Part shown: one piece after another, positions 19,856 through 54,234 of the stretch
Layout: the number at the start of each line of letters is the position of its first letter
Numbering within the stretch: position 1 is the stretch's first letter
Assembly: GCF_009362845.1 (NCBI RefSeq)
Contig: NZ_WHNW01000013.1
Location: 1 to 54,365, forward strand
Direction of reading: 5' to 3'
Source of the DNA: Ostreibacterium oceani
Lineage (GTDB): Bacteria; Pseudomonadota; Gammaproteobacteria; Cardiobacteriales; Ostreibacteriaceae
DNA: 54,365 nucleotides
Program-made: the position numbers and the translations under genes
Notes under the pieces: generated by a model
Told to the model about the DNA's origin: nothing
Databases searched by the model: none
Seen by the model: only the letters and a program-made list of their open reading frames with translations

Positions 19856-19943
19856 GGAGAAATGGCAGAGTGGTCGAATGCACCGGTTTTGAAAACCGGC
19901 GACTGTAACAGGTCCGGGGGTTCGAATCCCTCTTTCTCCGCCA
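19856..19943 (+). tRNA. tRNA-Ser (anticodon UGA), CCA encoded
   Basis: The acceptor stem pairs GGAGAAA with TTTCTCC. The anticodon stem CCGGT/ACCGG holds the loop TTTGAAA with anticodon TGA at 19890-19892. A long variable arm and the T arm (GGGGGTTCGAATCCC) are present, and CCA is encoded. A TATAAT at 19817-19822 is a likely -10 element. The 3' end is the integration site of the prophage. Confidence 0.97.
19921..19943 (+). other. attL core (3' end of tRNA-Ser)
   Basis: The 23 bases from the T loop to CCA recur at 54212-54234 with a single G-to-A difference, which marks the left boundary of the prophage. The last 19 bases are identical. Confidence 0.92.
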
Positions 19944-20146: not shown

Positions 20147-21319
20147 ATGCCACTGAGCGATTTACAAATCAAAAAAGCCAAGCCTGCTGAAAAAAAATAT
20201 AAGCTCAATGATGGGCACGGCCTTTTTTTGCTGGTCAAACCCAATGGCAGTAAATTTTTTTATTTTCGTTTTTCTCAACATCGAAAGCAGCGAGAAAAAT
20301 ATCTGGGCGAATATCCAGCCGTCACACTCGCCGCTGCACGTATTGCCGTAGCGCTGGCGCGGGAAAACATCGATCGCGGGCTGTCACCATTTCCAGACAA
20401 AAAAGCGAAAACAAAAATCACCTTTTCTGATGTCACGGCACAATTTCTAAAACAAAAAGCCAAGCACGTCACACCCAAAACCCTCGATACGGCAAGGTCG
20501 CGTTTTGAAAATCATGTTTTCCCGTTTATTGGCAACAGAGCAATCACTGAGATTTCTACAGCTGAGGTCAAAGCCATTTTAGTGCGACTTGACGATGACG
20601 GTAAGTCGTCCTTAGCGATTCGGACGCGTAGTTTAATCAGCGCGGTGTTTCGCTATGGCATTTTGGACGGGGTTTGTGATTATGATGTTGCTGCCCCGCT
20701 AACAGGATTTATCAAGCGAAAAAAAGTCAAACACATGCCCGCACTCACCACCCCGCGCGAGGTCTCTGCGTTACTCGGCGCGATTTGGGGGTATCACGGC
20801 GCGTTTCGCACACGCGTCGCGCTGAAATTAATGGCGTATTGCTTTGTGCGCACACAAGAAATGCGCTTTGCCGAGTGGTCAGAGTTTGACTTTGACCGCG
20901 GGCTGTGGGTAATCCCCGCTGAAAAAATGAAAATGGCGCGCCCGCACATCGTACCACTGGCGCATCAGTCGATTGAGTTATTGAAAAGCATCAACGAGTA
21001 CACGGGGGATCGAAAATATGTTTTTTCTAACCCCCGCCGCGATAAAGACGTCACCATGTCAGAAAACACGATTAATAATGCGCTAAAAATCCTCGGGTTT
21101 GAGGGGGTGATGGTCGGGCATGGTTTTCGCGCGATGGCTAGCACGATGTTGCATGAGCAAGGCTATTCGCCACTACATATCGAGATGCAACTCGCGCACG
21201 CCGAGAAAAACAGCGTCAAAGCCGCGTACAATCACGCGGAATATCTCGCCCCCCGCGCGACGATGATGCAAAACTGGGCCGATTATTTGGATGATTTACG
21301 TCTCAATCCCCCGCGCTAG
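20147..21319 (+). CDS. int: Tyrosine-recombinase integrase (P4 family)
   Basis: Catalyses integration and excision at the tRNA-Ser site. The 390 residues start with the P4-type arm-binding domain (MPLSDLQIKKAKPAEKKYKL, then LGEYPAVTLAAARIAV). A SAM-like core-binding domain follows at about 95-185. The catalytic residues are visible: Arg near 239 (RTQEMRFAEW), Lys/His in MKMARPHIVPL, HGFR near 325-328, His in LAHAEKN near 350, and Tyr in AAYNHAEY near 360. It reads away from the tRNA, the usual position for this family. Confidence 0.95.
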   Translation: MPLSDLQIKKAKPAEKKYKLNDGHGLFLLVKPNGSKFFYFRFSQHRKQREKYLGEYPAVTLAAARIAVALARENIDRGLSPFPDKKAKTKITFSDVTAQFLKQKAKHVTPKTLDTARSRFENHVFPFIGNRAITEISTAEVKAILVRLDDDGKSSLAIRTRSLISAVFRYGILDGVCDYDVAAPLTGFIKRKKVKHMPALTTPREVSALLGAIWGYHGAFRTRVALKLMAYCFVRTQEMRFAEWSEFDFDRGLWVIPAEKMKMARPHIVPLAHQSIELLKSINEYTGDRKYVFSNPRRDKDVTMSENTINNALKILGFEGVMVGHGFRAMASTMLHEQGYSPLHIEMQLAHAEKNSVKAAYNHAEYLAPRATMMQNWADYLDDLRLNPPR

Positions 21320-32372: not shown

Positions 32373-32657
32373 ATGACTATTAAAACAAAAAAAATCGACA
32401 CAAGTAAGCTACTCGACAATGAAGAGATCATATTAATTGCGCTCAATGACGCGATTGATGACGGTGATGCAAAATATCTCATGGCGTTATTGGATGATAT
32501 TGCCAAAGTCCGTGGCATGACAAATCTCGCTAAGGAAACGGGGTTAAATAGAGAGAGTTTATACAAAACGTTTTCGGGGGCGCGCGACCCTAAATTCAGC
32601 ACGCTGGCAAAAATTCTACCTGCATTAGGGTACAAGCTACATATTGAGCGTGCTTAA
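32373..32657 (+). CDS. Antitoxin-like HTH protein (DUF/HigA-type addiction antidote), partner not seen
   Basis: 94 residues from the ATG at 32373. LLDNEEIILIALNDAIDDGDAKYLMALLDDIAKVRGMTNLAKETGLNRESLYKTFSGARDPKFSTLAKILPALGY follows the probable addiction module antidote family, normally paired with a RelE-like toxin just upstream. Here the upstream gene is the membrane protein, so the antitoxin is orphaned or controls that gene. It is convergent with tail gene D, the two stop regions overlapping by 4 bp. Confidence 0.8.
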   Translation: MTIKTKKIDTSKLLDNEEIILIALNDAIDDGDAKYLMALLDDIAKVRGMTNLAKETGLNRESLYKTFSGARDPKFSTLAKILPALGYKLHIERA

Positions 32658-33697
32658 TCACCCGCACTATCGCCAATCAGCTGGTCGTCTTTGACTTCGC
32701 AGTCGATTGATGTGGTTAGCCCCTGCTCGTCTAGCGTATGCGTGGCCTTGGTGATCAGCCAATCGACCGCATCAATCGCGGGTTTAAATCCCGATACCGC
32801 AATCGGCAACTCGGGGAAAAGGTGCGGCTGGCCATACGCAAAGCGTATCGACAAGGCGGCCACGCCGCGGTTAAGTCGTTTGAGCTCGGCAGCGGCTGCC
32901 ACCTCGGCATCGTCGGCAGTTTTGTAGGCTTTTTTGAGCGTGGTGGTGCGGGTGTCATCGCCTGCGAGCACCCAGCGCTTTTTCGCCGCTTGTAAATCAA
33001 AGTAATAGGCTTTGACCCCTGTGAATTTATCGCGGTCACTCATGCGGTAGCTGTGCTGGTCGCCGCTGGTGCGGGTGATAGCGACGGTAGGTAGGGCAAT
33101 GCCTGTGCTAGACAGCCCCTCGGCGGCGGCAATAAAAAGTAACGCACCGTTTTTGATTGTGGCAATCGCATCGTGCTCAATGGCTAATCGCGTGAGTAGG
33201 TTGGCATCGCTTTCATTGGACTGAATTTTGTGCGTGAGTTGAATGCCTGTGAGGCTTGCCGAGACGCGAGGCGTAAGTTCGTACTCGCTGGCAATTTTGC
33301 CAATCAATGCGCTGAGGGTTTGCTTTTCATAGCTGATATTTTTCTTTTCCAGCAGTGCTTCGCGAAAATCCGCGGATTTGGCGTTAATCGTGAGGATATC
33401 GGGCGCACCGCTATGCTCGACGGCATCGACGATAAACTGCCCCTTGTCTATGAGCGGCACGCCGCGCCAGCCCAGCGCAACAGACACCACCGCCCCATGC
33501 TCGGGCACGGGCATTACCCCGTCGTGATCGCTGAGCACAATGCTAACCGTGTCGGCCTCAAAGCCGCGATTGTCGTTAATGGTCAGCGAGACAATGCGGG
33601 TCGCGAGGTCATCGGTCACGTCGCGGTCGTTAATTGACAGCCGCCACGCGGGGTGTCTATGCCCTGCGGTCAACTCAAAGTGGGGTATATCAACCAT
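32654..33697 (-). CDS. D: Phage late control protein D (tail hub), P2 gpD
   Basis: 347 residues. The opening HFELTAGHRHPAWRLSINDRDVTDDLATRIVSLTINDNRGFEADTVSIVL and the central YEKQTLSALIGKIASEYELTPRVSASL are typical of P2 gpD, the VgrG-like hub at the tail tip. It is the last gene of the late tail operon, after U, as in P2. Hub proteins need baseplate partners (V, W, J, I) that are absent here. Confidence 0.9.
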   Translation of the reverse strand: MVDIPHFELTAGHRHPAWRLSINDRDVTDDLATRIVSLTINDNRGFEADTVSIVLSDHDGVMPVPEHGAVVSVALGWRGVPLIDKGQFIVDAVEHSGAPDILTINAKSADFREALLEKKNISYEKQTLSALIGKIASEYELTPRVSASLTGIQLTHKIQSNESDANLLTRLAIEHDAIATIKNGALLFIAAAEGLSSTGIALPTVAITRTSGDQHSYRMSDRDKFTGVKAYYFDLQAAKKRWVLAGDDTRTTTLKKAYKTADDAEVAAAAELKRLNRGVAALSIRFAYGQPHLFPELPIAVSGFKPAIDAVDWLITKATHTLDEQGLTTSIDCEVKDDQLIGDSAGD

Positions 33698-33718: not shown

Positions 33719-34144
33719 TTACAAAAACCCTAGCGCATCGGTGAGTGCGCCGAGCAAATCCAAGTCGTCATCGCCGACGCGCTTGAGCTTAATCGTAAAA
33801 TCGATTTTGCGCGGTTGACCGTTGTCAAAAAACTCCGAGGCGGTATCGTCAATACCCTCGCAGACAAATAGCCCGTAGATTTTCCCCGTGCGCTCGACCA
33901 GCGGCCATGCTTGCCCCATATCCGCCATCGCACGCGCCAGCTCAATCGCGGTGCGCCCCCCTGTGATTTCGGGGTACAGCACGCCTGGCAGCGTAATGGT
34001 TTCGTCGCCTTGGCCCAAGTACTGCGCCCCTGCGCGCATTCCGACGCGCGAGTTAGTCGGGTGGCGCCACGCGCTGGTGCGTGATAGCTCTTGGTACGGC
34101 AAGGTGGATAACCCAAACACAAACATCCCCCATGACATCATCAT
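33719..34144 (-). CDS. U: Tail protein U (P2 gpU)
   Basis: 141 residues. MFVFGLSTLPYQELSRTSAWRHPTNSRVGMRAGAQYLGQGDETITLPGVLYPEITGG is a clear P2 gpU sequence, the tail terminator-like protein. The protein lies before D and after T, in P2 order, but higBA is inserted (on the other strand) between T and U. Three ATG codons start the frame; the first usable one is taken. Confidence 0.92.
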   Translation of the reverse strand: MMMSWGMFVFGLSTLPYQELSRTSAWRHPTNSRVGMRAGAQYLGQGDETITLPGVLYPEITGGRTAIELARAMADMGQAWPLVERTGKIYGLFVCEGIDDTASEFFDNGQPRKIDFTIKLKRVGDDDLDLLGALTDALGFL

Positions 34145-34214: not shown

Positions 34215-34221
34215 AATCACC

Positions 34222-34500: not shown

Positions 34501-34525
34501 CCACCAATTAAAGAGGAAAAATATT

Positions 34526-37113: not shown

Positions 37114-37118
37114 ATAAT
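37090..37118 (+). promoter_or_regulatory. Promoter of the small membrane protein gene, apparently leaderless
   Basis: TTGCAG (37090-37095), 17 bp, TATAAT (37113-37118). The ATG of the rightward gene is at 37125, so the layout is the same as for higBA. The promoter overlaps the start of tape-measure gene T. Confidence 0.65.
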
Positions 37119-37124
37119 AACCTT

Positions 37125-37421: not shown

Positions 37422-37566
37422 ATGCTTCGTGATAGGCGATGGCGCGATTATTCCAGTCCACAATCTCAGCAATCGCCATATCGCAGCATTCAAAAAAACC
37501 AAACCGATAAATTAGCGCAATATTTCCCATCGCATCCTCAATCGTCGCTAACCCTCTGAGCTGTCC
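37408..37566 (-). CDS. E': Tail chaperone extension E' (translated by -1 frameshift from E)
   Basis: 52 codons open in the -1 frame after the slippery site. They read GQLRGLATIEDAMGNIALIY and later FFECCDMAIAEIVDWNNRA, the pattern of the P2 E' extension. There is no ATG start of its own. The fusion E+E' would be about 154 residues. It is the tail assembly chaperone that works with E around the tape measure. Confidence 0.85.
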   Translation of the reverse strand, partial: GQLRGLATIEDAMGNIALIYRFGFFECCDMAIAEIVDWNNRAIAYHEASNGD

Positions 37567-37871
37567 AAAAAACCAACCAAACCCTCGCTAACGCGCTGTA
37601 AATCAGTCAAACTAAACTGATTAACTTCGCTGGCAATAATGCTTGGCGTGGCGATACGCGACAGCAGCACTGCCACCGCATCAATGTCTAATTGAAAAAC
37701 ATCTAGCAGCTTAAGCCCGCGCAAATCCCCTGCACGCGGTTCGCGCAGGGTTAGCTGGGTAATGTCATTGCCATCACGGGCAATGGGCTGACTAAGCGTG
37801 ATGGTCTTGAGTCGCGCGGTGGTCGCGTGTTCGGGTTTGTTGCCCGCGTTGTTATCGGTGTTGTTGCTCAT
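37548..37871 (-). CDS. E: Tail assembly chaperone E (P2 gpE)
   Basis: 107 residues. LKTITLSQPIARDGNDITQLTLREPRAGDLRGLKLLDVFQLDIDAVAVLLSRIATPSI is the phage tail assembly chaperone E family (pfam Phage_TAC type). A programmed frameshift near its end yields E+E'. Followed by T, preceded by tail tube FII, as in P2. Confidence 0.92.
   Translation of the reverse strand: MSNNTDNNAGNKPEHATTARLKTITLSQPIARDGNDITQLTLREPRAGDLRGLKLLDVFQLDIDAVAVLLSRIATPSIIASEVNQFSLTDLQRVSEGLVGFLDSSEG
37566..37572 (-). promoter_or_regulatory. -1 translational frameshift slippery heptamer T TTT TTG
   Basis: On the minus strand the zero-frame codons GGT TTT TTG form T_TTT_TTG, the same heptamer used by P2 for E/E'. The E stop codon lies five codons later and the -1 frame stays open for 52 codons. 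Confidence 0.85.
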
Positions 37872-37919: not shown

Positions 37920-38429
37920 TTACGCGCCGATGTTGCGTTTGTGGTCTTCTAGTCTGTCTTTGCCTTGCCATTTTTCGACCATGTTCATGATGTCAATCTC
38001 GCATAGCTCGCTACCGTTGTACAAAATACGGATATAGCTGACTTCAATCTTGATTTTGTGCTCGGTGTCCTCACCCGATTTGGCGGTCGGTAGCGACATT
38101 TCAGACAGCCGCCCTGTGATTTCAATTTCCATGGGCAGGGCTTCGCATTTGTCGTCGCCTGCGAAGCTACCCGTAAAGCGCGCGGTGATGCCGTCGTGCT
38201 GACACAGTCCAAAATGGCCAAAAAATTCAAACGACAGTCCGCCCATGGTGACTTCCATCGACAGCGCTTCTAGTCCGTGGTCGGTTTTAATCGGGGCGTA
38301 CATGCCGCCACCGCGGTACTCCTCCATTTTGCGCATAAATTGCGGTAATGTAATCTCGTTGACCTGTCCGACGAAGTTATCGCCATCTAGGAAAAAGTTG
38401 AAATGTTTAAGCTTTTTAGGTAATTGCAT
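37920..38429 (-). CDS. FII: Major tail tube protein (P2 gpFII)
   Basis: 169 residues. MQLPKKLKHFNFFLDGDNFVGQVNEITLPQFMRKMEEYRGGGMYAPIKTDHGLEALSMEVTMGG is the tail tube family of contractile P2-like tails. It lies 20 bp after the sheath gene. Confidence 0.94.
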   Translation of the reverse strand: MQLPKKLKHFNFFLDGDNFVGQVNEITLPQFMRKMEEYRGGGMYAPIKTDHGLEALSMEVTMGGLSFEFFGHFGLCQHDGITARFTGSFAGDDKCEALPMEIEITGRLSEMSLPTAKSGEDTEHKIKIEVSYIRILYNGSELCEIDIMNMVEKWQGKDRLEDHKRNIGA

Positions 38430-38449: not shown

Positions 38450-39595
38450 TTAGTTAGACAAGATGACGGCGTATTCGGTCAAGTATTTGTCAGTGATTTT
38501 TTGTACCAGTGTTAAGTCTTCTAGCGGTGGCACGGGCGTGTAGTCATAGTGTATGACAAGCTTGCCGCCCTTTAGTTGGCTAGGCTCGTTAGCCTCGATT
38601 TCGTACCACGCGCGCCCACCGACCAAATGCCCCACCGCAGTGCGGCGGCGTAACTCGGCGTTGATCGTTGCGATAATGTCGCGAATCAACTGCACATTCA
38701 TGGGCTTATCCATAAACGCGGACAAGGTGTCGGCGATAATCTCGCGGATGGCTTGGCCCGAGCGCACGGTGGTCTCAAACGCAAATAACGGATCAGACGC
38801 GCAGGTACGCAGTCCCCACAGCCTAAAGCCGCCGCGGCTGGCAAACGTGGTGATTTGCGCCTCGTTAAGCACCGCGGCATCGTTGCTGCTATCGGTCAAT
38901 GACCAGCTTACATCGTGGCTGAGGGCGACCACGCCGTTGACAGGCAAGTTAGAAATCGGATGGTGCCAGCCCTGCTCGGCGTCGATTTTGGCGCGCATCC
39001 CCGCAGCAAGGGCGGCGGCGGGTTTTTCGACAATCGCGCCCGTCGCGGTATCGAGTCCCATTGGGTTGGGCCACAGCAATTCAATCTCGCGCTGGGCGAA
39101 GTTGTCGCGATAGAGCACCGCCTCGCTGAGTGTCGCACCGCTGGCGGTGGCGTAGGCAAAGCCGTTTAGCTTTTGCGCGGCGGATGCGAGCGCGTTGGCG
39201 ACTGCCAAGTCGTCGTCTAAAAACCCTGCTGTGAGGATTTTGGGCGTGACGCCCAGCCGTGAGTCGGCGGTCTCTAGCAGCGTGATGCCTGCGACGGCGT
39301 TCGCGCGTGTCTCGGCATCGTCTGCGCCCTCGGCAACGCGCACAATCACCAGTCTCGGTAACACTTGGTTGTGGATTTCTTCGAGGTTGGCAAGCAGCGT
39401 GCCTGTCGCGCCGACGTTATTGATCGCCGAATAAATATTGGTAAATAAGACAGGCTCACCCAGCGGGAATAGCGTCGCATCCGCATCGGGTGCAGTGCCG
39501 ACTAAGCCGATAATCTCGGTGGATTTGGGGGCGCTGGGGCGCGTGCCTGTGTTGTCTTCGATGGTTCTGATGCCATGTACGTATGAGGTGGCCAT
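38450..39595 (-). CDS. FI: Contractile tail sheath protein (P2 gpFI)
   Basis: 381 residues. The start YVHGIRTIEDNTGTRPSAPKSTEIIGLVGTAPDAD and the end YDYTPVPPLEDLTLVQKITDKYLTEYAVIL match P2-type sheath proteins. The 'VVALSHDVSWSLTDSSNDAAVLNEAQITTFASRGGFRLWGLRTCASDPLFAFETTVRSGQAI' region carries the conserved domain. Followed by tube gene FII. The contractile tail would need a baseplate, whose genes are missing. Confidence 0.95.
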   Translation of the reverse strand: MATSYVHGIRTIEDNTGTRPSAPKSTEIIGLVGTAPDADATLFPLGEPVLFTNIYSAINNVGATGTLLANLEEIHNQVLPRLVIVRVAEGADDAETRANAVAGITLLETADSRLGVTPKILTAGFLDDDLAVANALASAAQKLNGFAYATASGATLSEAVLYRDNFAQREIELLWPNPMGLDTATGAIVEKPAAALAAGMRAKIDAEQGWHHPISNLPVNGVVALSHDVSWSLTDSSNDAAVLNEAQITTFASRGGFRLWGLRTCASDPLFAFETTVRSGQAIREIIADTLSAFMDKPMNVQLIRDIIATINAELRRRTAVGHLVGGRAWYEIEANEPSQLKGGKLVIHYDYTPVPPLEDLTLVQKITDKYLTEYAVILSN

Positions 39596-40782: not shown

Positions 40783-40783
40783 A

Positions 40784-41359
40784 TTACGCGCCTCCATTGA
40801 GCGTGTAGGCGATTTGCGCGTACACATACGCTGATGTTTCGCCTTTGATGCTGTCCAGCTCAAAAGACGTGTTAAACGCGATACCCCCACCCGCGAGATT
40901 AAGCCCGCCGACCCCTTGCTCGAGTCGCAAGTCGCCGTTGGTGACCGCGTAAATCGTGTTGCCATCAATCCGCAGCGCAAAACCCGCCTTTACCGCGGTG
41001 GTAACTATCGACAACAGGCGTATCACGCCACTGCCGCTAACAGAAAGCTTGGTGGCGCCATTAATATACGATAGCCAAAATATTTTCTCAACCGCGCCCC
41101 CGCTGGGGGGTGTGGCGCTGGCTGCGAGCGCAGCGGTTTGCGCGCCCAGCGTCGTGACATCAGCTGCCACGTCAGCGAGCGCGGTGCTGGACGCACGGGT
41201 GGCGACATTGGCGTTAATCGCGGACGCGACCGAGGTTAGCCCTGCGCTGGTCGCCATCGCATCGATGCGTGGGTCGGTGGTCTTGAGCGTCGCATCCACT
41301 GCGGTGCGCGTTGTCTGCGCCTCACGGTTGACGGCATCTAACGTTAAAATATCAGGCAT
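40784..41359 (-). CDS. Tail fibre-like protein
   Basis: 191 residues. The N-terminal half is Ala/Thr-rich and heptad-like (LTSVASAINANVATRASSTALADVAADVTTLGAQTAAL), a coiled shaft. The C-terminal half is beta-rich (KLSVSGSGVIRLLSIVTTAVKAGFALRIDG). Such a shaft-plus-head layout suits a short tail fibre. No family assigned. GGAGGTCAAC precedes the ATG. Confidence 0.6.
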   Translation of the reverse strand: MPDILTLDAVNREAQTTRTAVDATLKTTDPRIDAMATSAGLTSVASAINANVATRASSTALADVAADVTTLGAQTAALAASATPPSGGAVEKIFWLSYINGATKLSVSGSGVIRLLSIVTTAVKAGFALRIDGNTIYAVTNGDLRLEQGVGGLNLAGGGIAFNTSFELDSIKGETSAYVYAQIAYTLNGGA

Positions 41360-41450
41360 GTTGACCTCCGTTATTGGTTGCTTTATTGGTTAATTTGTTT
41401 GTCAGGTTATTCATTGGCTCACTCATTGGCTCACTCATTGGCTCACTCAT
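41352..41450 (-). CDS. Possible 32-residue coupling peptide with MSEP repeats
   Basis: The frame begins ATGAGTGA, overlapping the stop of the 149-residue gene, and encodes MSEP three times, then NNLTNKLTNKATNNGG. It ends 8 bp inside the next gene. It spans the whole gap between them and could couple their translation, or be chance created by the repeat. Confidence 0.25.
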   Translation of the reverse strand: MSEPMSEPMSEPMNNLTNKLTNKATNNGGQHA

Positions 41451-41459
41451 TGGGTAACA
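41412..41459. repeat. 12-bp tandem repeat, three copies plus part
   Basis: CATTGGCTCACT starts at 41412, 41424 and 41436, followed by CATTGGGTAAC. On the minus strand each copy supplies ATG AGT GAG CCA. It lies at the end of the 149-residue gene. Confidence 0.85.
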
Positions 41460-41892
41460 CCTCAGACGTTTGTCCTAGGTATTGCCCCGTGAGGGCATCC
41501 CAAGTAATGGTGTGGCGCGTCGTGATACCTAAATACGTGATGTCATAACTCACCACACGACCAGCGGCGTCGCGGGCAAATTGCGTGACACGGTTTTGCC
41601 CCGCAATCGTTGCCGTCTCGGTCAGCACCACGCTGTGCGTGGCGTCATACGTCAACCCAATACTCGTCGGTAAATACGCGTCGCGGCGGTAAGCATCCAG
41701 CGCCTCGACCGTCGGGGTGATAGCGGAAAGGCTGGACTCAATCGCGGTGATCGTCGCCGCGTCCGCACCCCCCGCGGCCCATAGTGCCGCATCTAGCGCA
41801 ATAATCGTCTGACGAATGCGCTCGACATCGTGCGACAGCGCGTTATCGGCTGAGGGCAGCGGGAATTGGTAGTGTTCGGTTTCTGTAATCAT
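41443..41892 (-). CDS. Hypothetical tail-region protein
   Basis: 149 residues. HYQFPLPSADNALSHDVERIRQTIIALDAAL and the C-terminal THSVVLTETATIAGQNRVTQFARDAAGRVVSYDITYLGI are typical of small proteins between fibre genes in P2/Mu-like phages. The role is unknown. It follows the DUF4815 fusion gene by 15 bp. Confidence 0.6.
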   Translation of the reverse strand: MITETEHYQFPLPSADNALSHDVERIRQTIIALDAALWAAGGADAATITAIESSLSAITPTVEALDAYRRDAYLPTSIGLTYDATHSVVLTETATIAGQNRVTQFARDAAGRVVSYDITYLGITTRHTITWDALTGQYLGQTSEVLPNE

Positions 41893-41906: not shown

Positions 41907-44900
41907 TTAAGCTTCGATAACCAGCACCCGCGGGTTCTCGACAAACGGGCGCGCGCCTGCGTGGCCGACCAGCTCAATCTCGACGGCGATGTTGGCGGCA
42001 TCAATCAGGGTGTCAGACTCAAAAATCAGCTCAACGCGCCCATCGTCTAGCAGCGTGTAATCGGGTAATTGGGTGAGCGTTTGCCACGTGCTGGTGTCGG
42101 GGCTCGCATCGGTCGAAGCCGCGCGCACGATGACGTTCGCGCCCTGCGGGGTAAACGCATCGACGAGTACGCGCACACGGCTATTAAGCCCTGCGGGGAT
42201 GGCGCGGGTAATGTAGCGGCCACTGGTCTCTAGCCGCCCCGTCAATACCTGCACCGTTGCCCCCAGCACGGGTGAAAAGGTGGCACTACCGATAAGCACC
42301 GCGCGTAGCGTGATGTCACCGCTAATCGCGGCGGGTAGCGCACGGTGTTGCCCGTCGGCAAAGGTCAGCACCTGCCCGTCGGGCAAGGTCGCCTCGACCG
42401 TCACGGTGGTGTCAGCCGCGGTGATTTGTGTGTTAGTTAGCACGTAAAGATCGGTGACCGCGGTGACGCTGAGCGTGCCGATATCGATCGTTTTGGCGGT
42501 GGCGACATAATCGGCGGCGTGCAGCGCAAACAATAAGTCACTGTCGTTGTGCGGCGTCCACGTCGAGGCGTTCGATGATGATAACAATACGCCGACCGTG
42601 TACGGCTGCGCGGTTATCCAGCGCTGGCGCTCGTCATCAAAGCCGCCTAGTGTGGCGACCTTGAGCGACGGGGTGGGCTCGTCGCTTAAAATCACCAGCG
42701 CATACTCAACGCCGCCGTCAAGCAGCACGGGCAAGTCGAAAGCAAATCGGGTCGCCCGCCCTGCCCCATCATTCGCTGATAAGTCGGCCGCCAGTGTCGC
42801 GGCATCGACTAGCGCCTCGGCTAAAATGGCTTGGGTCGGTAGCCCTGTTGCTGTCTCGCGGATTTGCATCCGCACCGCGCGGTCACCCACCGCGCAAAAC
42901 GACACGTCCACGGCGGTGAGCTGGGTGGCGCTCGGTAGGCTAAAGGTCTGTGCCAGTGGGTCAACGGCGCGAAAACGCGTGACCACGCGGGTGAGGTTAT
43001 CGTTAGCAATCGTGCCGTCGGCAGTAAAGACCGCCTCGCCGATTTGCCCCGAGCGCGTCGCGACCGTGACGAGCTTTTGCCCCGCAGGTACGCCCTCGGG
43101 GATGGTAAAGCGCACGTTAGCGCGACCCTTATCGTCTGCCAGCGCATCGCCGCTGGTCGCGACCGTGATGCCGTCAAACTGCACCGCGTCGATGATTTCA
43201 CCATCTCCCATCCCCGCAATCGCGGCGTTGACGGCAATCGGTCGGCAAAACTCGGCGGCTGTCTCGGTGATGCCGTCTGAGCGAAATGTCGTGCGACTAC
43301 GCGGGCCTGCCCCGATCGTCTCGGTGCCGACGACCGACTCGGTATTGACTGTCCAGCGGTCAACCGCAGGCGATAGCGTCACGGTCGGCGGGATGGGGTC
43401 AAACGCCATATACGGGTTGATTAGCATACAATCTGACGCGAGGGGCTGGGACAGTATTTCGCGGTGGGTATAGTTTAGCGTGACAGGCGCGCCTAGGTCG
43501 AAAAAATGCGCGGCGGCGGTGATGGGTAATTGTAGCCGCGCGTCTTCTATGAGTGCGGTCTGCGGTCGCCCTGCGTCGCGCAAGGTGTCAGACAACAGCG
43601 GGTCGGCGAACACGCCGTGTTTGCGCCCGTTTTCTTGATTAGACGCCGATAATTCGAGCTTATTCTGCGCGACTTGCTCGGTGAGAAAATCCAGTCGCTC
43701 GGCGTGGCGGTTGAGCGTTGACATCGACACCACGCGCACGCCGTCTTGGTAGATGATTCGTGGGGTATCGGCTGTCCAGCGCTGCTCGATGGTCGCCAGT
43801 AGTAATAAGTTGCTGGGGACTTTGGGGGGCAGCGGCGCGGTGAGTGATGCAATGCCGCGTAGCATCACAGGCTCACCACCTGCGTCTAAGCACAGGCGGT
43901 CGTGGCGCGGGATAAAGTGGTCGTAACTGGTTAAAATCGGCGTACCTGCGACCGCATCGGCGAGCGTGTAGCCAAATTCGTCGACCGCGCTCGCCTCAGC
44001 CAGCGCGATGTAGTGATACGTCACGCTATACGTCGAGCCTGCGGCTGGCTCGGCGCCTGACAGTGACCAATCGACTTTGCCGCTGGTTAGCTGATAATCG
44101 ACGCCCTGCTGGTAAGTGACACCCCCTTGGGTGACGCTGACTAGCGCGACCACGCTGGCATCGGGTAGCAAGTCTTGGCTGTTGGTGATATTGGCGTGTG
44201 TGACGGTGACGGATTTTTCGCGCGTCACGCGCACGGCGGTGATGCTTGCAATCGGGGTGCGGTTAAGGTTCACGCGCTGTTGTCCGCCGATGGCCAGTGC
44301 CGTCTCAGCATCAACACTGCCCAACTCGGGGGCGGTGTCAAATTGCGCGGGACGCGCCGCGCCGTATTCATACGCATAGCCACCAATTTGCGCGGCGCCT
44401 GCATCGATAATGTAGCGCTCTTTGCCCGCTGGTGCAGCGGTCGCGTGGACTTTTAGTCCGCGCACAATGTATTGACTACCCGTGCTGTCGCGGTCGTATT
44501 TTGCAATCGCCGACTGCACACCGCTAATATGTGGTGGTGGGGCTTTGGCGGTTAAATAGCCGTCGCGTGCGGTATAGACCGCGTAGAATTGCGGGGGGTG
44601 GCTGGGCGCGCTATTAGGTGAGCTGTTGGGCGCGTTATTGGGAGCGGCGTCGGTCGTGTTGTCGGGTGGGGTATCGGATAGCCCCCACGCCGTGGTGACT
44701 GCCAACCGCCACGCGCCTGCCTCGTTTTGCCCGCGCGTGCCAAGGGCGGGGTTGCGAAGCGTTGGGTCGTCGGCCTCGGTCACATAATAATAACTAAGCC
44801 ATACGCCAATCACGACGTCGCCGCTGGTCGCAACAAGCAGCTCACGCGACGGCACGGCGTAGATATCGCCGTCTAAGTACACATCGGCGCTATCCACCGT

Positions 44901-45215
44901 CAGCGCCCCCGTATCGGCATCTAGGCTGGCGCTGCCGCCGCGCACAATGTCGCCTGCTTTAAATATCACGTCATTGATACGGCGGTGCGCAGCGTGGGTG
45001 AGGTGCTTGCTGTTTAGCGTCCACGATAGCCCTTGGCGGTACAGCTCGCGCTGGCGCTGGGGGCTACGCAGTCCCTCAATGACGGTAAAGTCCTGTGTGG
45101 TGAGACCAATCGCGGTCTCGACCAGCGTAATCAAGCGTGGATCAACCCCGCGCAGGTTGCGCCGACTGCGGCTACCTAGTTGATAATTGGAGGCCATTGT
45201 TGAGGTTATTGCCAT
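41907..45215 (-). CDS. In-frame fusion: truncated M15 endolysin + N-truncated DUF4815 tail protein
   Basis: About 1102 residues. Residues ~1-73 are an M15 peptidoglycan peptidase (LGSRSRRNLRGVDPRLITLV, FTVIEGLRSPQRQRELYRQG, LNSKHLT). The zinc motif SxHxxGxAxD breaks after SKHLT. The next residues (HAAHRRINDVIFKAGDIVRG) enter the DUF4815 tail-protein domain part-way, continuing LDADTGALTVDSADVYLDGD and DPTLRNPALGTRG. The long remainder resembles fibre or baseplate-associated proteins. The junction (~44995) points to a deletion joining two unrelated genes. The start ATG at 45215 overlaps gene X by 10 bp; an ATG at 45197 is an alternative. Confidence 0.85.
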   Translation of the reverse strand: MAITSTMASNYQLGSRSRRNLRGVDPRLITLVETAIGLTTQDFTVIEGLRSPQRQRELYRQGLSWTLNSKHLTHAAHRRINDVIFKAGDIVRGGSASLDADTGALTVDSADVYLDGDIYAVPSRELLVATSGDVVIGVWLSYYYVTEADDPTLRNPALGTRGQNEAGAWRLAVTTAWGLSDTPPDNTTDAAPNNAPNSSPNSAPSHPPQFYAVYTARDGYLTAKAPPPHISGVQSAIAKYDRDSTGSQYIVRGLKVHATAAPAGKERYIIDAGAAQIGGYAYEYGAARPAQFDTAPELGSVDAETALAIGGQQRVNLNRTPIASITAVRVTREKSVTVTHANITNSQDLLPDASVVALVSVTQGGVTYQQGVDYQLTSGKVDWSLSGAEPAAGSTYSVTYHYIALAEASAVDEFGYTLADAVAGTPILTSYDHFIPRHDRLCLDAGGEPVMLRGIASLTAPLPPKVPSNLLLLATIEQRWTADTPRIIYQDGVRVVSMSTLNRHAERLDFLTEQVAQNKLELSASNQENGRKHGVFADPLLSDTLRDAGRPQTALIEDARLQLPITAAAHFFDLGAPVTLNYTHREILSQPLASDCMLINPYMAFDPIPPTVTLSPAVDRWTVNTESVVGTETIGAGPRSRTTFRSDGITETAAEFCRPIAVNAAIAGMGDGEIIDAVQFDGITVATSGDALADDKGRANVRFTIPEGVPAGQKLVTVATRSGQIGEAVFTADGTIANDNLTRVVTRFRAVDPLAQTFSLPSATQLTAVDVSFCAVGDRAVRMQIRETATGLPTQAILAEALVDAATLAADLSANDGAGRATRFAFDLPVLLDGGVEYALVILSDEPTPSLKVATLGGFDDERQRWITAQPYTVGVLLSSSNASTWTPHNDSDLLFALHAADYVATAKTIDIGTLSVTAVTDLYVLTNTQITAADTTVTVEATLPDGQVLTFADGQHRALPAAISGDITLRAVLIGSATFSPVLGATVQVLTGRLETSGRYITRAIPAGLNSRVRVLVDAFTPQGANVIVRAASTDASPDTSTWQTLTQLPDYTLLDDGRVELIFESDTLIDAANIAVEIELVGHAGARPFVENPRVLVIEA

Positions 45216-45466
45216 AAGTTCACCCACCGCGTGTTTATAGATGCAGGCGCAGCGGCGAGAGGAGAAGTGGGCACCACCGCGCCTGCGGGTAAAAAAATCG
45301 TCGCGAGCGACGCATCGGTCATCATCAACGCCTCGATGCCACGGGTACTGCCCGTCGCGCGGTAAAGCACACTATCTAGCGCCTCGTCCTCGTGCGCCAA
45401 TGTTGTCGTTGTTGGCTGTGTTGTTGTTGCCGTTGTCGCCGTTGCCGTTGCCGCTGTCGCTGTCAT
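45206..45466 (-). CDS. X: Tail protein X (P2 gpX)
   Basis: 86 residues. An Ala/Thr-rich N-terminus (ATATATTATTTQPTTTTLAH) precedes EDEALDSVLYRATGSTRGIEALMMTDASLATIFLPAGAVVPTSP, the tail protein X (LysM-like) pattern. In P2, X follows L and precedes the lysis genes, as here. The low-complexity N-terminus is encoded by GTTGTTGCC-type triplets. Confidence 0.82.
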   Translation of the reverse strand: MTATAATATATTATTTQPTTTTLAHEDEALDSVLYRATGSTRGIEALMMTDASLATIFLPAGAVVPTSPLAAAPASINTRWVNLWQ

Positions 45467-45479
45467 GATACCCCCTTTT

Positions 45480-46034
45480 TTAAATTAACGTCACGCGCAC
45501 GCGGGGGTTACCCTGCACCGCGCTCACGGCGGTGCGGTATTGGGCGCGCCACGTGCTGAGCTGTTCGTCGATTTTATCGGCGGCCGTCTCGCGCGCACCG
45601 AATGCGGTGGTGTCCACATCGCGGTACGTGTCAACAAGGTGTGCCTTGGCATACGAATAGACCGCGACGCGAAACCAGTGCACGGCGGCCGTTACGTTAT
45701 CAATGCTGGTGGCTTCAATGCTGGTGGCGTCGATGCTGCCGTCAATGCTGGATGCGTCGATGCTAGTATGACTGTCGGCAAGCGTCGTCACGCCCCGTGC
45801 GGTTTGGGTACGCGCCCAGCTGTCCAGCTCGGCGGTCACGGTAAACAGCGCGGTCATCAGCGCGTCACGCACGCGAGCCGTGGGGTACGTGCTGTCAATG
45901 CGGGTAATCGCGCGAAACTGCGCCATGGACACCGCGGGCCACCAGCCAGCCCCTAGGGTTGACGTCAGCGATACCGCGTCATCGACCGTGGGGTCAAGGT
46001 TGTCTGTGGTGTCTGTCGCGATAAAGCCTGTCAT
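45480..46034 (-). CDS. L: Head completion/stabilisation protein (P2 gpL)
   Basis: 184 residues. WWPAVSMAQFRAITRIDSTYPTARVRDALMTALFTVTAELDSWA is the gpL head completion pattern. A repeat (SIDASSIDGSIDATSIEATSID) is inserted in the middle and is unusual. It sits after M and before X. Confidence 0.88.
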   Translation of the reverse strand: MTGFIATDTTDNLDPTVDDAVSLTSTLGAGWWPAVSMAQFRAITRIDSTYPTARVRDALMTALFTVTAELDSWARTQTARGVTTLADSHTSIDASSIDGSIDATSIEATSIDNVTAAVHWFRVAVYSYAKAHLVDTYRDVDTTAFGARETAADKIDEQLSTWRAQYRTAVSAVQGNPRVRVTLI

Positions 46035-46224: not shown

Positions 46225-46995
46225 CTATTTGTCGGGCTGTCGGCTATCGTCTGCCGCCTTTTTAAGCGCCTTTTTAAGCGCTTTGATTTTGGTCTTGACG
46301 CCAATCTTGGGGTTTAGCGCGATGGCGCGCTCGTAATAATCTAGCGCCCCCGACAAGTCATCATCGGACTCGGACAGCCCGCCGCCTGCTTTCATTAGCT
46401 TGGCGCTAATCTCATCGTGCATATCAATGCCCGCAATCGCCGTCATGACGCGATCAAATAGCGCCCGCGTCACGGTGCGTGCATCGGGCGCGACCTCGCG
46501 GTAACACTCATCAATCGCCGCCTCGGCCAGTTGCTCGGCTAAGAAATCGGCAGGGCGCCTGCGAAAACGCTCGGGCAAAGTCATGTCGGCGGCGGAAATC
46601 GCGGAAAATAAGCGCAACGCGGTGTCGTAGTCGCCGATATCAATCGACCAGACAAAGACGTGCGCCACGATGTCGTCTTGGCGGTGTCCGCCATTATTCT
46701 CGCCACTATTCTCGCTGCCCCCGTCGCTAGCCATGTCACTTGATAAAATCGCGTCCACGGCCGCGTCGCTCCAATCGCGATACGTCGGTAACAACTCGCG
46801 TTTCAGCGCGGTCTTGGCCTCGGTGCCGCGTACATTCGATAGGCGTGCGTTATCCTCGGCAAGCGCCATCAGTAACGTGTCGTAAGCATCCACCGCCGTG
46901 TGCCACGAAGTACCACCCGCGCGCGCGGCGCGGTCGGCTTCAGCGTGTTGGGCGGCTAGTATGCGCTCACGATGGCGCCTAAATAAACTCGACAT
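46225..46995 (-). CDS. M: Small terminase subunit (P2 gpM)
   Basis: 256 residues. ERILAAQHAEADRAARAGGTSWHTAVDAYDTLLMALAEDNARLSNVRGTEAKTALKRELLPTYRDWSDAAVDA and DDIVAHVFVWSIDIGDYDTAL match the P2 gpM endonuclease/small terminase. It binds cos DNA with P. The start overlaps the N stop by one base (TAATG). Confidence 0.92.
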   Translation of the reverse strand: MSSLFRRHRERILAAQHAEADRAARAGGTSWHTAVDAYDTLLMALAEDNARLSNVRGTEAKTALKRELLPTYRDWSDAAVDAILSSDMASDGGSENSGENNGGHRQDDIVAHVFVWSIDIGDYDTALRLFSAISAADMTLPERFRRRPADFLAEQLAEAAIDECYREVAPDARTVTRALFDRVMTAIAGIDMHDEISAKLMKAGGGLSESDDDLSGALDYYERAIALNPKIGVKTKIKALKKALKKAADDSRQPDK

Positions 46996-48011
46996 TAGAT
47001 AAAGCTCACATTCTCGGCAATCCCGCCAAGTCCGTAGTCTTCGATAGCATAAGCGTCGTTAGACGAGGTGTAGGTTTCGAGTCGGTCACGGCGTGGATTA
47101 TCGGCAAAGTGGCGGCGCTTGCCCCCGTTTTGCGTGTAAATGGATAAGTTCGCCAGCGTCGTTAGCATCATCGTGCCATCAGGAAAGTGCGGCACGTCAA
47201 TCACTGGCAAGCCATCAATCACGCCTGTTTGGCGAATTTTCGCGAGCGCCAGCGATTCGCTGGGGCTGTGCGCTTGGTTGACCAGTCGCATGGTGTCATC
47301 GGCTTGTAAATCGCGCCCCATAATCACGCATAGCCCTGCGGCATTACGGTGCCACACATCCAGTGCGTTGTTGCGAATGTCTAGCGCGAGGGCGTGTAAG
47401 TTTTTGTAATCGCCTGTCTCGCCAATCGTAATCGAACCCGCCGCAGCGCCATCTGACATGACTTTATCGGGGGCGTCGTTGCGGTATTTTTGAATCCAGC
47501 CTGTGTTGACGTCCTGTAGCAAGGGGTTGGCGACGCGGTCGGTGTTGTTCGCCGCATTCGTGCCGTGAAACCCGATCATAATACGGTCAAGCCCGATGCG
47601 CGTGACAATGCTCGCCGTGAGCTTGTCCTCGAAATCGGGGAATTTTGCCCACTGATCAAGTAGCGCATAGCGCACGTGGGTGTCGAAGTTCGTTTGTCGG
47701 CAGTAATAGCGCGCCGCGTTTAGTGAGTGCACGTCGCGCGTCTCACGCTCCGCCGACTCGGTGTCGGTACGGCTCGCAATCGTGCTGCCGACCCCAAGAC
47801 CGATGGTCTCGCCCTCCATCTCGTCGACGCCGAAAATGTTAATCGAGCGCAAAAAGCCGTCGGACTCTTGGATGCGTTTCTCTAACGTTTGCTCGACGCT
47901 GGGCGCGGCGATAAATTTGTGCCCGCCCCGCACCGTGTCGATGCTGATGCTGTTGAGGCTGGCTTGGGTCGTAAAGTATTGTTCTAGCTTGTCTCGGGTC
48001 TCGTTTTTCAT
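46995..48011 (-). CDS. N: Major capsid protein (P2 gpN)
   Basis: 338 residues. MKNETRDKLEQYFTTQASLNSISIDTVRGGHKFIAAPSVEQTLEKRIQESDGFLRSINIFGVDEMEG and the GWIQKYR...LHALALDIRNNAL region match P2-type major capsid proteins (HK97 fold). The N-terminal ~30 residues are the part removed by the O protease in P2. Flanked by O and M. Confidence 0.95.
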   Translation of the reverse strand: MKNETRDKLEQYFTTQASLNSISIDTVRGGHKFIAAPSVEQTLEKRIQESDGFLRSINIFGVDEMEGETIGLGVGSTIASRTDTESAERETRDVHSLNAARYYCRQTNFDTHVRYALLDQWAKFPDFEDKLTASIVTRIGLDRIMIGFHGTNAANNTDRVANPLLQDVNTGWIQKYRNDAPDKVMSDGAAAGSITIGETGDYKNLHALALDIRNNALDVWHRNAAGLCVIMGRDLQADDTMRLVNQAHSPSESLALAKIRQTGVIDGLPVIDVPHFPDGTMMLTTLANLSIYTQNGGKRRHFADNPRRDRLETYTSSNDAYAIEDYGLGGIAENVSFI

Positions 48012-48113: not shown

Positions 48114-49115
48114 TTAGCAATCGGCGCGAATAATGTCATCCCCGCCCACGCCTGCGTGCGGTGCGACGTAGTGCATGTCGGTGGATTCGACGGCGGATTT
48201 AAACGCGGTGAGTTGGTCGATGGTCGCTTGTGCCGCGGCAAAATCGCGGGTCAGCGTGTCCAGCTGCGCCGATAGCGCGCTGAGTTGGTCGATGGTCGTC
48301 TGCGGGGCGAGGTCGTCGCGCTGGTCATCACTGTCAACCGCGGTCGTGAGTGTCTCGCGATCAGCGGGCACGATGTCATCGAGCTGATTATCCGTATCCT
48401 CTAGCGCGGCGAGGCGACGCTCGTGCGACAGCACCGTGTCATTCAATAGCTCACTCAGCGTGTCCAGCGCGGCGATGACCGTGGTGTGAAAATCATTGTC
48501 GTCATTCATTGGCACAGTGGTATCGGGGGTGGTATCGGGGGTAGTGTCGGGGGCATCGGTGGCAACCGATGCACACAGTGCCGTCTCGATGACCTCCGAG
48601 TACACCCTGCCCGCGTTGTTCATGTTGTTGTCGGTGTTGCCGCTATTGCCGTTGTCTTTGCTGTCGACGGCGTGGGCCGTGGCATCACGGGCAGCGCGGG
48701 CGCTAAACTTGAGCGGCTCGGTGCCAAGGCTAGCGGGGGAATCGGTAAACGCGAGCCCCGTCAGATAGGCTTTACCCGTTTTGGCAAAGTCGGGGGTGAC
48801 CTCAATCGAGGTGTAGATTTTTTGATTGTTTTTATTCATTGCGATCAAGTGCTCGTTCGCGATGATGTCGGCGTACAGACACAGCGTGTCGGTGCCGTTG
48901 ATGGTATCGGTCTGCGTAAACACCGCCTCGACATCGCCGACGGCGGGAAACGGCCCTGCCTCGGTGACGTTACGCAAGTGCTCTATCCAGCACCGCGCCC
49001 CATAAGTCGATTGATCATAGGTGTCGGCGATATCGGTCAGCCACTCGGGCTTAATCTCGCGGCCATCGCTGACGGTGTAACCTGCGGCGGCGATGCGTAG
49101 CGTTTTTTTCTTCAT
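48114..49115 (-). CDS. O: Capsid scaffold and maturation protease (P2 gpO)
   Basis: 333 residues. The N-terminal protease has RIAAAGYTVSDGREIKPEWLTDIADTY, with His in WIEHLRN and Ser in TDSPASLGTEPLKFS, the serine protease core of gpO. The C-terminal scaffold helices follow (LSALSAQLDTLTRDFAAAQATIDQL). A short TPDT repeat (DTTPDTTPDTTVP) precedes the helical region. First gene of the leftward late operon, divergent from P. Confidence 0.92.
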   Translation of the reverse strand: MKKKTLRIAAAGYTVSDGREIKPEWLTDIADTYDQSTYGARCWIEHLRNVTEAGPFPAVGDVEAVFTQTDTINGTDTLCLYADIIANEHLIAMNKNNQKIYTSIEVTPDFAKTGKAYLTGLAFTDSPASLGTEPLKFSARAARDATAHAVDSKDNGNSGNTDNNMNNAGRVYSEVIETALCASVATDAPDTTPDTTPDTTVPMNDDNDFHTTVIAALDTLSELLNDTVLSHERRLAALEDTDNQLDDIVPADRETLTTAVDSDDQRDDLAPQTTIDQLSALSAQLDTLTRDFAAAQATIDQLTAFKSAVESTDMHYVAPHAGVGGDDIIRADC

Positions 49116-49285: not shown

Positions 49286-49309
49286 CTCGCCGTGTGAAGT
49301 CAATCGTTG

Positions 49310-51085
49310 ATGCCTAAAATACGAAGCATGAGCCAGCGTAAAAACCACCCAGCACCCAAAATAACCGAAGACGACCGACGGCTAAAAGCCAAAGTGTTGT
49401 ACTTTAGCGGGCATCGCATCCCGCAAATTGCCGAAGCCATCAATACGCCAGAGTCCACCGTGCGCTACTGGCACAGCACCGATAAATGGGATAAGTTTGG
49501 GCAGGCCGAGCGCGTCAACGATGCCCTCGGGGCGCGGCTGTGTCTGCTGATCGCCAAAGACCCCAAGGAGGGTCGCGATTTTAAAGAAATCGACCTACTC
49601 ACCCGCCAACTCGCGCGCGTCGAGCGCGTGCGCGCCACCCCGACCGCACCGCGAAAAGGCGAAAAACGTGGCGGCGACCGCACCAACAAAAATTACCTAT
49701 CGCCCGCGGCGATTGAACAAATCCAAACCGCCTTTATGGATAACCTGTTTGATTACCAGCAACTGTGGTACGACAACCGCCACCAGCGCAACCGCCAAAT
49801 CCTCAAGTCACGGCAAATCGGCGCGACGTATTACTTTGCCCGCGAGGCACTGGTCGATGCGCTGACCAGTGGACACAATAAGATATTTTTGTCCGCATCC
49901 AAATCGCAAGCCTACGTGTTTCGCGAGTACATCAAAGCACTTGCCATGGAAGCCGCCGAGGTCGAGCTAACGGGTGACCCCATGACGATTCGCACCGACG
50001 ACCACGAATGCACGTTTTATTTTTTAGGCACCAACAGTAAAACGGCGCAGAGCTACCACGGTGACATCTTTATGGACGAGTATTTTTGGATTAACAACTT
50101 TGACGAGTTTAAAAAGGTGGCCTCTGCCATGTCATCGCACAAACAATGGAAGCGCACCTATTTCAGCACGCCATCAGCGGTCGCCCACGAAGCGTATCCA
50201 TTTTGGACAGGGGTCGCGTACAACCGCGGGCGCAAAAAAACCGAGCATATCCATATCGATACCCGCGCGAAAACACTGGCGAGCGGAAAATTGTGCGCCG
50301 ATAACGTGTGGCGGCATCTGGTCACCGTCGAAGCCGCCGCCGATCTCGGGTGTCATCTGTTTGACCTCGGACAGCTTAAATCCGAATACGCGCCCGACGA
50401 ATACGCTCAGTTATTTATGTGTGAGTTTGTTGATGATCACGACAGTGTGTTTAGCTTTGGCGAGTTAAACCGATGTTTAGTCGAGACGCGCCGCCTATGG
50501 CCCGATGTCAAGCCCTTTGCCAATCGCCCCGTGGGTGATGATGCCGTCGCCATCGGCATTGACCCCGCCAAGTCGCGCGATGGCTGCGCGGTGTCGGTGA
50601 TTGCTTTACCCAAAGTCACGGGCGGGAAATTTCGCTTAGTCGAGCGCCTGACCCTGCGTGAGCCCTTAAGCGAAGCCCAAGCCGCCGCCATTGCCAAGCT
50701 CTGCGACAAATACGAAGTCGCGCACATGGAAATCGACGAAACGGGCATGGGGATAGCGCTGGCCGAGCGCCTGGCGAAAATCTACCCGCGCCTGCGCCGC
50801 GTGAGCTATAACCTAGAGACCAAAAATGCACTCGTCGTCAAGGCCATTGAAATCATCCGAAGCGGACGCCTAGAAGTCGACGAAGCCGCGCGCGAATGGG
50901 TGGGAGCGTTTCTCGCGATTAAAAAAACCCAGACCGCCTCGGGCAAATACCTAACGTACAAATCCGACCGCCGCGAAGATATCGGCCACGCCGACATCGC
51001 CTGGGCGACCATGCACGCCCTTGCCGTCGAGCGCATTGGATTTGACAACGGCGGGGCATCACCCGCGCGCGCGGTGGTGTTTTGA
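49310..51085 (+). CDS. P: Terminase large subunit (P2 gpP)
   Basis: 591 residues from the ATG at 49310 (or 585 from 49328). The N-terminal HTH is clear (LYFSGHRIPQIAEAINTPESTVRYWHSTDKWDKF). The ATPase domain follows: SRQIGATYYFAREAL resembles the Walker A region, IFMDEYFWI is the Walker B, and FFLGTNSKTAQSYHG-like motifs sit between them. A nuclease domain comes last (IGIDPAKSRDGCAVSV, MEIDETGMG, DIGHADIAWA). It packages DNA with M. Portal Q follows 38 bp later. Confidence 0.95.
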   Translation: MPKIRSMSQRKNHPAPKITEDDRRLKAKVLYFSGHRIPQIAEAINTPESTVRYWHSTDKWDKFGQAERVNDALGARLCLLIAKDPKEGRDFKEIDLLTRQLARVERVRATPTAPRKGEKRGGDRTNKNYLSPAAIEQIQTAFMDNLFDYQQLWYDNRHQRNRQILKSRQIGATYYFAREALVDALTSGHNKIFLSASKSQAYVFREYIKALAMEAAEVELTGDPMTIRTDDHECTFYFLGTNSKTAQSYHGDIFMDEYFWINNFDEFKKVASAMSSHKQWKRTYFSTPSAVAHEAYPFWTGVAYNRGRKKTEHIHIDTRAKTLASGKLCADNVWRHLVTVEAAADLGCHLFDLGQLKSEYAPDEYAQLFMCEFVDDHDSVFSFGELNRCLVETRRLWPDVKPFANRPVGDDAVAIGIDPAKSRDGCAVSVIALPKVTGGKFRLVERLTLREPLSEAQAAAIAKLCDKYEVAHMEIDETGMGIALAERLAKIYPRLRRVSYNLETKNALVVKAIEIIRSGRLEVDEAAREWVGAFLAIKKTQTASGKYLTYKSDRREDIGHADIAWATMHALAVERIGFDNGGASPARAVVF

Positions 51086-51123: not shown

Positions 51124-52179
51124 ATGAGATTAATTGATTATTTTAGAAAAAAAGAAACCGCGAAACCTAATGTTATGACCGCCGACAGGGGGGGCAGTGG
51201 CAGTGGGCTTGGCAGTAGCTTTGGCAGTAGCTTTAGCATCGACGATGCCGTGACGGCGATTGATAAAAAAGAAATATTCGAGCACTACTGGCGCGGCGAT
51301 AATGATAAATACTATCTGCCCCCGCTGGACTGGGATGCCATCGCCAAATCGTATCACGCCAATCCGTTTCACACCTCAGCCATACAAGCCAAGCGCAACA
51401 TCTTAATCAGTACTTTTGTCGAGCATCCAAAACTCACACGCACCGAGTTTGAAAAACTGGTCACCGATTATCTCATATTTGGCAACGACTACCTGCGCGC
51501 CGTGCAAAACCGCGCAGGCCACGTGATGCGCTACGAAGCGCTCAAAGCACGCTGGATGCGCGTCGGCAAAAAAAACGACTATTATTATCTGCGCAACCGC
51601 GAGGCGGAAAAGCTAAAAGGCGACATCACGCACCACAAAAACCACGACATCAACCAAGACATCTACGGCGTGCCCGAGTACATGGCAGGCATGAATAGCG
51701 CGTGGCTGGGCGAGGCAGCGACCCTATTTCGGCGCAAGTACTATAAAAACGGGTCGCACGCGGGCTACATATTACACATCACCGAAAACCTAAGCGACCA
51801 AGTCATCGCCAGCATCGAGAGCCAGCTAGCCGCGAGCAAAGGCGTGGGGAATTTTAAAAACCTCATGGTGCATAACCCCGAGGGCAAAAAAGACGGCATC
51901 GAATTAATCCCCATCGCCGAAGTCCAAGCGCGCGATGAGTTTTATAACATCAAAACACTCACCCGCGATGACATCCTCGCCACGCACCGCGTCCCGCCGC
52001 AGCTCATGTCGGTCATCCCGACCAACACGGCGGGCTTTGGCGACGTCGAAAAAGCATCAAAAGTATTTGTTATCAACGAACTTATTCCACTGCAACAGCG
52101 GCTTAAAACGATTAACGAGATGGTCGGCGAGACGATTATCGCGTTTGGCGATTATGAATTGATTGGTGAATCAGTCTGA
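51124..52179 (+). CDS. Q: Portal protein (P2 gpQ)
   Basis: 351 residues. FSIDDAVTAIDKKEIFEHYWRGDNDKYYLPPLDWDAIAKSYHANPFHTSAIQAKRNIL is a P2-type portal N-terminus. MRYEALKARWMRVGK, INQDIYGVPEYM and PPQLMSVIPTNTAGFGDVEKASKVF follow, all conserved in the family. A short Gly/Ser repeat (SGSGLGSSFGSSFS) near residue 25 is unusual. Transcribed rightward with P. Confidence 0.95.
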   Translation: MRLIDYFRKKETAKPNVMTADRGGSGSGLGSSFGSSFSIDDAVTAIDKKEIFEHYWRGDNDKYYLPPLDWDAIAKSYHANPFHTSAIQAKRNILISTFVEHPKLTRTEFEKLVTDYLIFGNDYLRAVQNRAGHVMRYEALKARWMRVGKKNDYYYLRNREAEKLKGDITHHKNHDINQDIYGVPEYMAGMNSAWLGEAATLFRRKYYKNGSHAGYILHITENLSDQVIASIESQLAASKGVGNFKNLMVHNPEGKKDGIELIPIAEVQARDEFYNIKTLTRDDILATHRVPPQLMSVIPTNTAGFGDVEKASKVFVINELIPLQQRLKTINEMVGETIIAFGDYELIGESV

Positions 52180-54211: not shown

Positions 54212-54234
54212 TTCAAATCCCTCTTTCTCCGCCA
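54212..54234 (+). other. attR core
   Basis: Same 23 bases as the tRNA-Ser 3' end (19921-19943) with one G-to-A change at the fourth position. It marks the right boundary of the prophage. Confidence 0.92.

Follow-up and report, generated by a model that had tools for sequence, protein, structure and literature searches.

The window analysed here is the whole 54,365-base contig C13 of the genome of Ostreibacterium oceani (2.18 Mb, 36 contigs). It contains a P2-like prophage, in which a single open frame on the minus strand (41907-45227, 1106 amino acids, without a stop) begins like an endolysin and continues as a DUF4815 tail protein. This raises the question whether the frame encodes a new kind of phage protein or is what remains after a deletion. 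A sequence-only reading of the region had proposed the latter.

The prophage measures 34.3 kb between its att cores and its ends are intact (Table 1). An integrase gene lies beside a tRNA attachment site with a duplicated core, and the divergent Q-P and O-N-M-L head block is combined with an FI-FII-E-T-U-D tail block in P2 order. Portal, terminase, scaffold, capsid, small terminase subunit, head completion protein and gpX are located on one side of the join within the fused frame; sheath, tube, gpE, tape measure, gpU and gpD are located on the other. The genes R, S, V, W, J and I, which in P2-like phages stand between the lysis genes and the fibre or DUF4815 gene, are absent. We take the absence of this baseplate block as a secondary loss and therefore speak of a defective P2-like prophage and not of a complete P2-like phage. 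None of the head and tail frames appears broken. Recognition of gpX was weak, with a Pfam match below cut-off. The tape measure protein comprises 750 residues versus 878-939 in four relatives, which is within the length variation of tape measure proteins.

Table 1. Positions of the prophage features in the window
Feature	Position	Strand	Evidence or remark
attL core	19925..19943	+	3' end of tRNA-Ser (19856-19943); 19 bases repeated identically at 54216-54234
Integrase	20147..21319	+	phrog_1, E 2.5e-68; just inside left att copy
gpD tail / late control protein, intact	32654..33697	-	phrog_52
gpU tail protein, intact	33719..34144	-	phrog_76
gpT tape measure, 750 aa	34861..37113	-	phrog_973, phrog_28
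gpE tail protein	37548..37871	-	phrog_103
gpFII tail tube	37920..38429	-	phrog_55; homologue of Acica tail tube gene
gpFI tail sheath	38450..39595	-	phrog_23
Small gene after DUF4815	41443..41892	-	homologue of Acica 'RHS repeat protein'
DUF4815 (VrlC-like) protein minus first ~40 residues	41907..44990	-	PF16075, 473 bits; phrog_877 from position 43
Deletion junction (inferred)	44988..45008	-	residues 74-80 of fused frame; endolysin and DUF4815 profile matches overlap there
N-terminal remnant of M15-type endolysin, ending within SxHxxGxAxD	44991..45215	-	phrog_465 match
gpX tail protein	45206..45466	-	phrog_46, E 9.7e-6; own profile, E 9.4e-8
gpL head completion	45480..46034	-	PF05926, 104.9 bits
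gpM terminase small subunit	46225..46995	-	phrog_74
gpN major capsid protein	46995..48011	-	phrog_70
gpO scaffold/protease	48114..49115	-	phrog_73
gpP terminase large subunit	49307..51085	+	phrog_3746, phrog_2
gpQ portal	51124..52179	+	phrog_68
attR core	54216..54234	+	19-base repeat of attL core

The prophage also carries several genes of other kinds. The plus strand encodes a HigB-like toxin and a helix-turn-helix antitoxin in the interval from gpU to the tape measure (34186-34825), and a small hydrophobic plus-strand frame without family match, possibly a lysogenic-conversion gene, lies between the tape measure and gpE (37107-37421). The frame adjoining the sheath gene (39831-40274) gives a weak match to prokaryotic phospholipase A2 (E 6.4e-5, under the family cut-off). 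The left-hand cargo (29986-32362) comprises a 37-kD nucleoid-associated protein (NA37) and a protein of unknown function, and a search of the prophage cargo for defence systems resulted in weak helix-turn-helix-type matches only.

For the fused frame itself, we infer as the probable start an ATG (45215) that lies 12 bases further in than the GTG listed. Residues 7-79 align with positions 35-109 (of 292) in the profile of the endolysin family phrog_465 (E 2.8e-22) and residues 76-633 match phrog_877 from position 43 of 1141 (whole-protein E 1.2e-205); the Pfam domain DUF4815 (PF16075) is found with 473 bits. At these E values, neither match can be due to chance. The in-frame fusion described in the sequence-only reading is therefore real, and the DUF4815 part is indeed entered part-way, about 40 residues late. 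The interval to which that reading referred (44960-45215) covers the endolysin part and the join. Our own profiles, one built from 21 endolysin-bearing loci and one for the DUF4815 N-terminus built from the fetched loci (162 found; loci with a stop in this stretch were left out), match up to residue 79 and from residue 74, respectively. Since the two share residues 74-79 only, the join can be placed in residues 74-80, at about 44988-45008.

Both halves are incomplete at this point. The zinc site of M15-type endolysins consists of the motif SxHxxGxAxD and a downstream E and H. The endolysins of intact relatives read on as SRHLTGHAVD or SRHLTGHAID, and the window there reads SKHLTHAAHRRIND, so the description of an endolysin that stops after SKHLT in the middle of the motif was accurate. 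Of the pattern visible in the relatives, the S and the first H alone are left, and because the zinc site is incomplete, the remnant should be inactive. Intact DUF4815 proteins begin 40-50 residues earlier, with a stretch like LFRAGLGLQSxELNE. This N-terminal motif occurs in 157 of the 162 listed loci in a broad pattern (107 of 162 in a strict one) and is lost in the window. The solved DUF4815 protein ORF65 of PDB 9euf, presumably from a staphylococcal phage baseplate, aligns to the family from its own residue 8; the start missing in the window therefore belongs to the conserved DUF4815 protein. Among the papers listed for the phage 812 baseplate, none was on the DUF4815 protein. In the alignment, the endolysin stretch LYRQGLSWTLNS pairs with the DUF4815 stretch LFRAGLGLQSxELNE; endolysin residues 68-72 resemble the QSxELNE motif in the alignment only, the true motif being lost. 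The resemblance may be a coincidence or may represent a short guiding similarity for recombination at the junction.

What normally lies between the two halves becomes evident from the relatives. The Acidovorax phage Acica (OP131588, Peduoviridae) is like the window in gene order on both sides of the join and shares the DUF4815/VrlC gene (36% identical to that of the window). Its genes are arranged in the order L, X, holin, endolysin, a hypothetical gene, R, S, V, W, J, I, VrlC (DUF4815), small genes, FI, FII, E, T, U and D, with the endolysin two genes after gpX. Acica differs from the window in being intact: it has the holin, a complete endolysin, the genes R, S, V, W, J and I and also the start of DUF4815. 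The P2-like prophages of four bacteria from the same order as the host (Cardiobacteriales), namely Cardiobacterium hominis (L114), C. valvarum (L110), Dichelobacter nodosus VPI 2340 (L107) and Rappaport israeli (L109), have the order X-R-S-V-W-J-I-DUF4815-FI-U-D and, in contrast to the window, have kept the baseplate block. The endolysins of L114 and L107 look, judged by eye, like T4-type lysozymes, whereas that of the window is of the M15 type. The skipped block had been predicted to consist of the rest of the lysis genes and R, S, V, W, J and I, and the same placement of these genes in Acica and in the four prophages of the order bears this out.

A tblastn search of the window with 24 Acica proteins gave matches for L, M, the O/N product, VrlC, the RHS protein, FI, FII, E, T, U and D. 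No match was obtained for the holin, R, S, V, W, J and I, and X, the gene after the endolysin, E2, hyp18 and hyp19 were also unmatched. With the Acica endolysin, only a weak off-target match was obtained (near 15 kb, E 0.084); other profiles, and not this search, detected gpX and the endolysin remnant of the window. We also iterated profiles over 39644 frames taken from the loci fetched; among the loci listed, these found J in 135, V in 121, W in 114, I in 144, R in 34 and S in 38. None of these six profiles matched anything in the prophage at E values up to 10, so that baseplate genes elsewhere in the element, which would have spoken against a deletion, were looked for and not found. The control profiles detected X (E 9.4e-8), the endolysin (E 2.2e-26) and the sheath (E 1.6e-132) as well as U, D and L. 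The holin profile rests on three loci and the Rz profile on one, and their silence means little. Baseplate_J (PF04865), Phage_base_V (PF04717), GPW_gp25 (PF04965) and Tail_P2_I (PF09684) are absent from the whole host genome. Baseplate_J, Phage_tail_S (PF05069) and P2_Phage_GpR (PF06891) were found in four of the five genomes of the order that were searched, the sole miss being the host genome, in which the endolysin remnant is also the sole phrog_465 match.

The size of the loss can be estimated from 162 DUF4815 loci (80 of 122 relatives among genome contigs, 80 of 466 relatives among viral contigs and two phages). In 28 of these listed loci, X, R, J and I are located on one strand in P2 order, and the distance from the gpX stop to the DUF4815 homologue of residue 81 amounts to 5402-7741 bases (median 5888.5), as compared to 219 bases in the window. 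From this difference, the loss can be put at about 5.7 kb (likely range 5.2-7.5 kb), and the shortened gap fits the earlier proposal that one in-frame deletion explains the fusion. V, W, J or I precedes DUF4815 at a distance of up to 7 kb in 105 of the 108 listed loci whose upstream sequence extends over at least 8 kb, L099, L118 and L126 being the exceptions. The distance between DUF4815 and the sheath gene is about 5.4 kb in the window and 4.7-6.1 kb in the listed P2-ordered relatives, so nothing comparable is missing between these two genes.

Since the genome is a draft, a block of about 5.7 kb might have been dropped or collapsed in the assembly, the real prophage being intact. However, the join is located in the interior of a contig of 54 kb, and no repeat able to cause a misassembly is present at the join: its 28-base sequence has a single occurrence in the window, and the sole other match of the surrounding 767 bases in the genome is one of 65 bases to the low-complexity start of gpX. 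The dropped genes are also missing from all contigs of the assembly, which is rated 100% complete, and an assembly artefact is thus very unlikely. A second prophage copy on contig C4 had been considered because of the 65-base match and was rejected, given the low complexity of the matching gpX start.

The fused frame is open across 1106 codons and the remaining late genes look intact, as one would expect if selection had kept the fusion as a functional protein, for instance as a hydrolase module carried on the tail, in a phage that builds its tail tip in another way. Yet the endolysin part stops before most of the zinc site and the DUF4815 part lacks the widely conserved N-terminal motif. Such a fusion was also not found in intact phages: residues 1-200 of the fused protein match 515 phage records in INPHARED, none of which covers 80%, and none of the 160 listed DUF4815 loci contains it, the earliest matched residue there being 53. 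We take the matches starting at 53-62 to reflect the short resemblance of LYRQGLSWTLNS to LFRAGLGLQSxELN. In 96 + 369 genomes searched, only the window's own match spans both halves, and the viral contigs, searched with the fused protein as lone query, gave no match. The fusion as a known phage protein is rejected on these grounds. An alternative baseplate was sought among the small genes at 39831-41892 and none was recognised; the equivalent positions in Acica also carry small genes. Taken as a designed protein, the fusion is extremely improbable. The DUF4815 frames of L116, L119 and L122 seemingly lack the usual N-terminal motif and are possibly further broken copies.

The position of the holin deserves a separate comment. 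In the window, the gpX stop (45206) overlaps the endolysin ATG (45215) without a holin in between, and gpX retains its LWQ end (compare LWD in relatives). The overlap looks native, and any ancestral holin therefore lay downstream of the endolysin, in the lost block. Four P2-type loci carry an M15-type endolysin match. In three of them a holin match separates X from the endolysin, and in the fourth a gap of about 0.9 kb lies at this place. Because the window has no holin there, unlike three of these four, its arrangement reflects either an unusual ancestral order or a second loss. With regard to the rest of the lysis genes, the earlier interpretation is corrected accordingly: a holin, if the ancestor had one, belonged to the lost block.

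Overall, the element is very probably a P2-like prophage in tRNA-Ser that became cryptic by one internal in-frame deletion of about 5.7 kb. This would have been an illegitimate deletion in the integrated prophage, starting inside the endolysin gene, ending within the start of the DUF4815 gene and removing the remaining lysis genes together with R, S, V, W, J and I. The reading frame would have been kept by chance, and the chimeric frame would be a scar and not a designed fusion. A random deletion is in frame with a chance of one in three, and this outcome therefore neither helps nor hurts the assumption of a single deletion. No close sister prophage shows the undeleted state, the homologues of the five nearest comparators being about 20-53% identical. 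A fairly recent event would fit, because the other late genes appear whole.

In such a prophage heads may form, and the subunits of sheath and tube may be made. P2-type tails are nucleated on their baseplate, and because this is missing, no finished tail is expected: without V, W, J, I, R and S there would be no baseplate, and without the lysis genes virions would not be released. The phenotype proposed previously thus stands with respect to the missing baseplate and lysis and to the presence of the sheath and tube genes, but sheath and tube are expected as subunits only and not as a proper tail. The element has kept its heads, portal, terminase, sheath, tube and tape measure, as might a satellite that depends on a helper and takes baseplate and lysis from a contractile phage infecting the same cell. 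No helper with a recognised contractile baseplate is present in the host genome, however, where the Baseplate_J, gpV, gpW and gpI families are all missing, and known satellites do not usually retain such a large structural set of their own. A satellite is therefore highly improbable. There is likewise just a very slight chance that the deletion is tolerated or useful, with the element making head-only or helper-dependent particles, DNA being packaged in P2-type heads, a co-infecting contractile phage supplying baseplate and lysis, and the chimera being expressed.

Tailocins retain baseplate and lysis genes and lose the heads. The window shows the reverse pattern, with capsid genes kept and baseplate and lysis lost, and the possibility of an R-type tailocin was rejected for this reason. 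What the window has in common with R-type tailocins such as that of Marinomonas MEDPRO2 is a defective contractile-tail prophage (PMC10870725). Incomplete prophages are reported to lose replication, packaging and release genes preferentially, and loss of packaging and release with the integrase kept is the common pattern among cryptic prophages (PMC7744054). The window differs from cryptic prophages in general in that the head genes are whole and one block is gone, with an in-frame chimera as the mark. In the P2-like prophage of Rappaport israeli (L109), most of the tape measure gene was lost instead of the baseplate block. Between E and U (17751-18187 of that locus), the tape measure is reduced to its first ~82 residues: the sole frame there has 84 residues, matches the first ~80-100 residues of the 878-939-residue tape measures and is, judging by its sequence, the remnant of an internal tail deletion in another P2-like prophage of the order.

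The prophage of O. oceani is a case of ordinary prophage decay with an unusually cleanly preserved scar. For annotation, this means that the 1106-residue frame should be read as a scar and not as a new endolysin-baseplate fusion. As a clean example of the disarming of a temperate phage, in which a single deletion would have taken the tail tip and lysis while the rest stays readable, it adds a case from an order in which a second prophage, that of Rappaport israeli, lost most of its tape measure gene.
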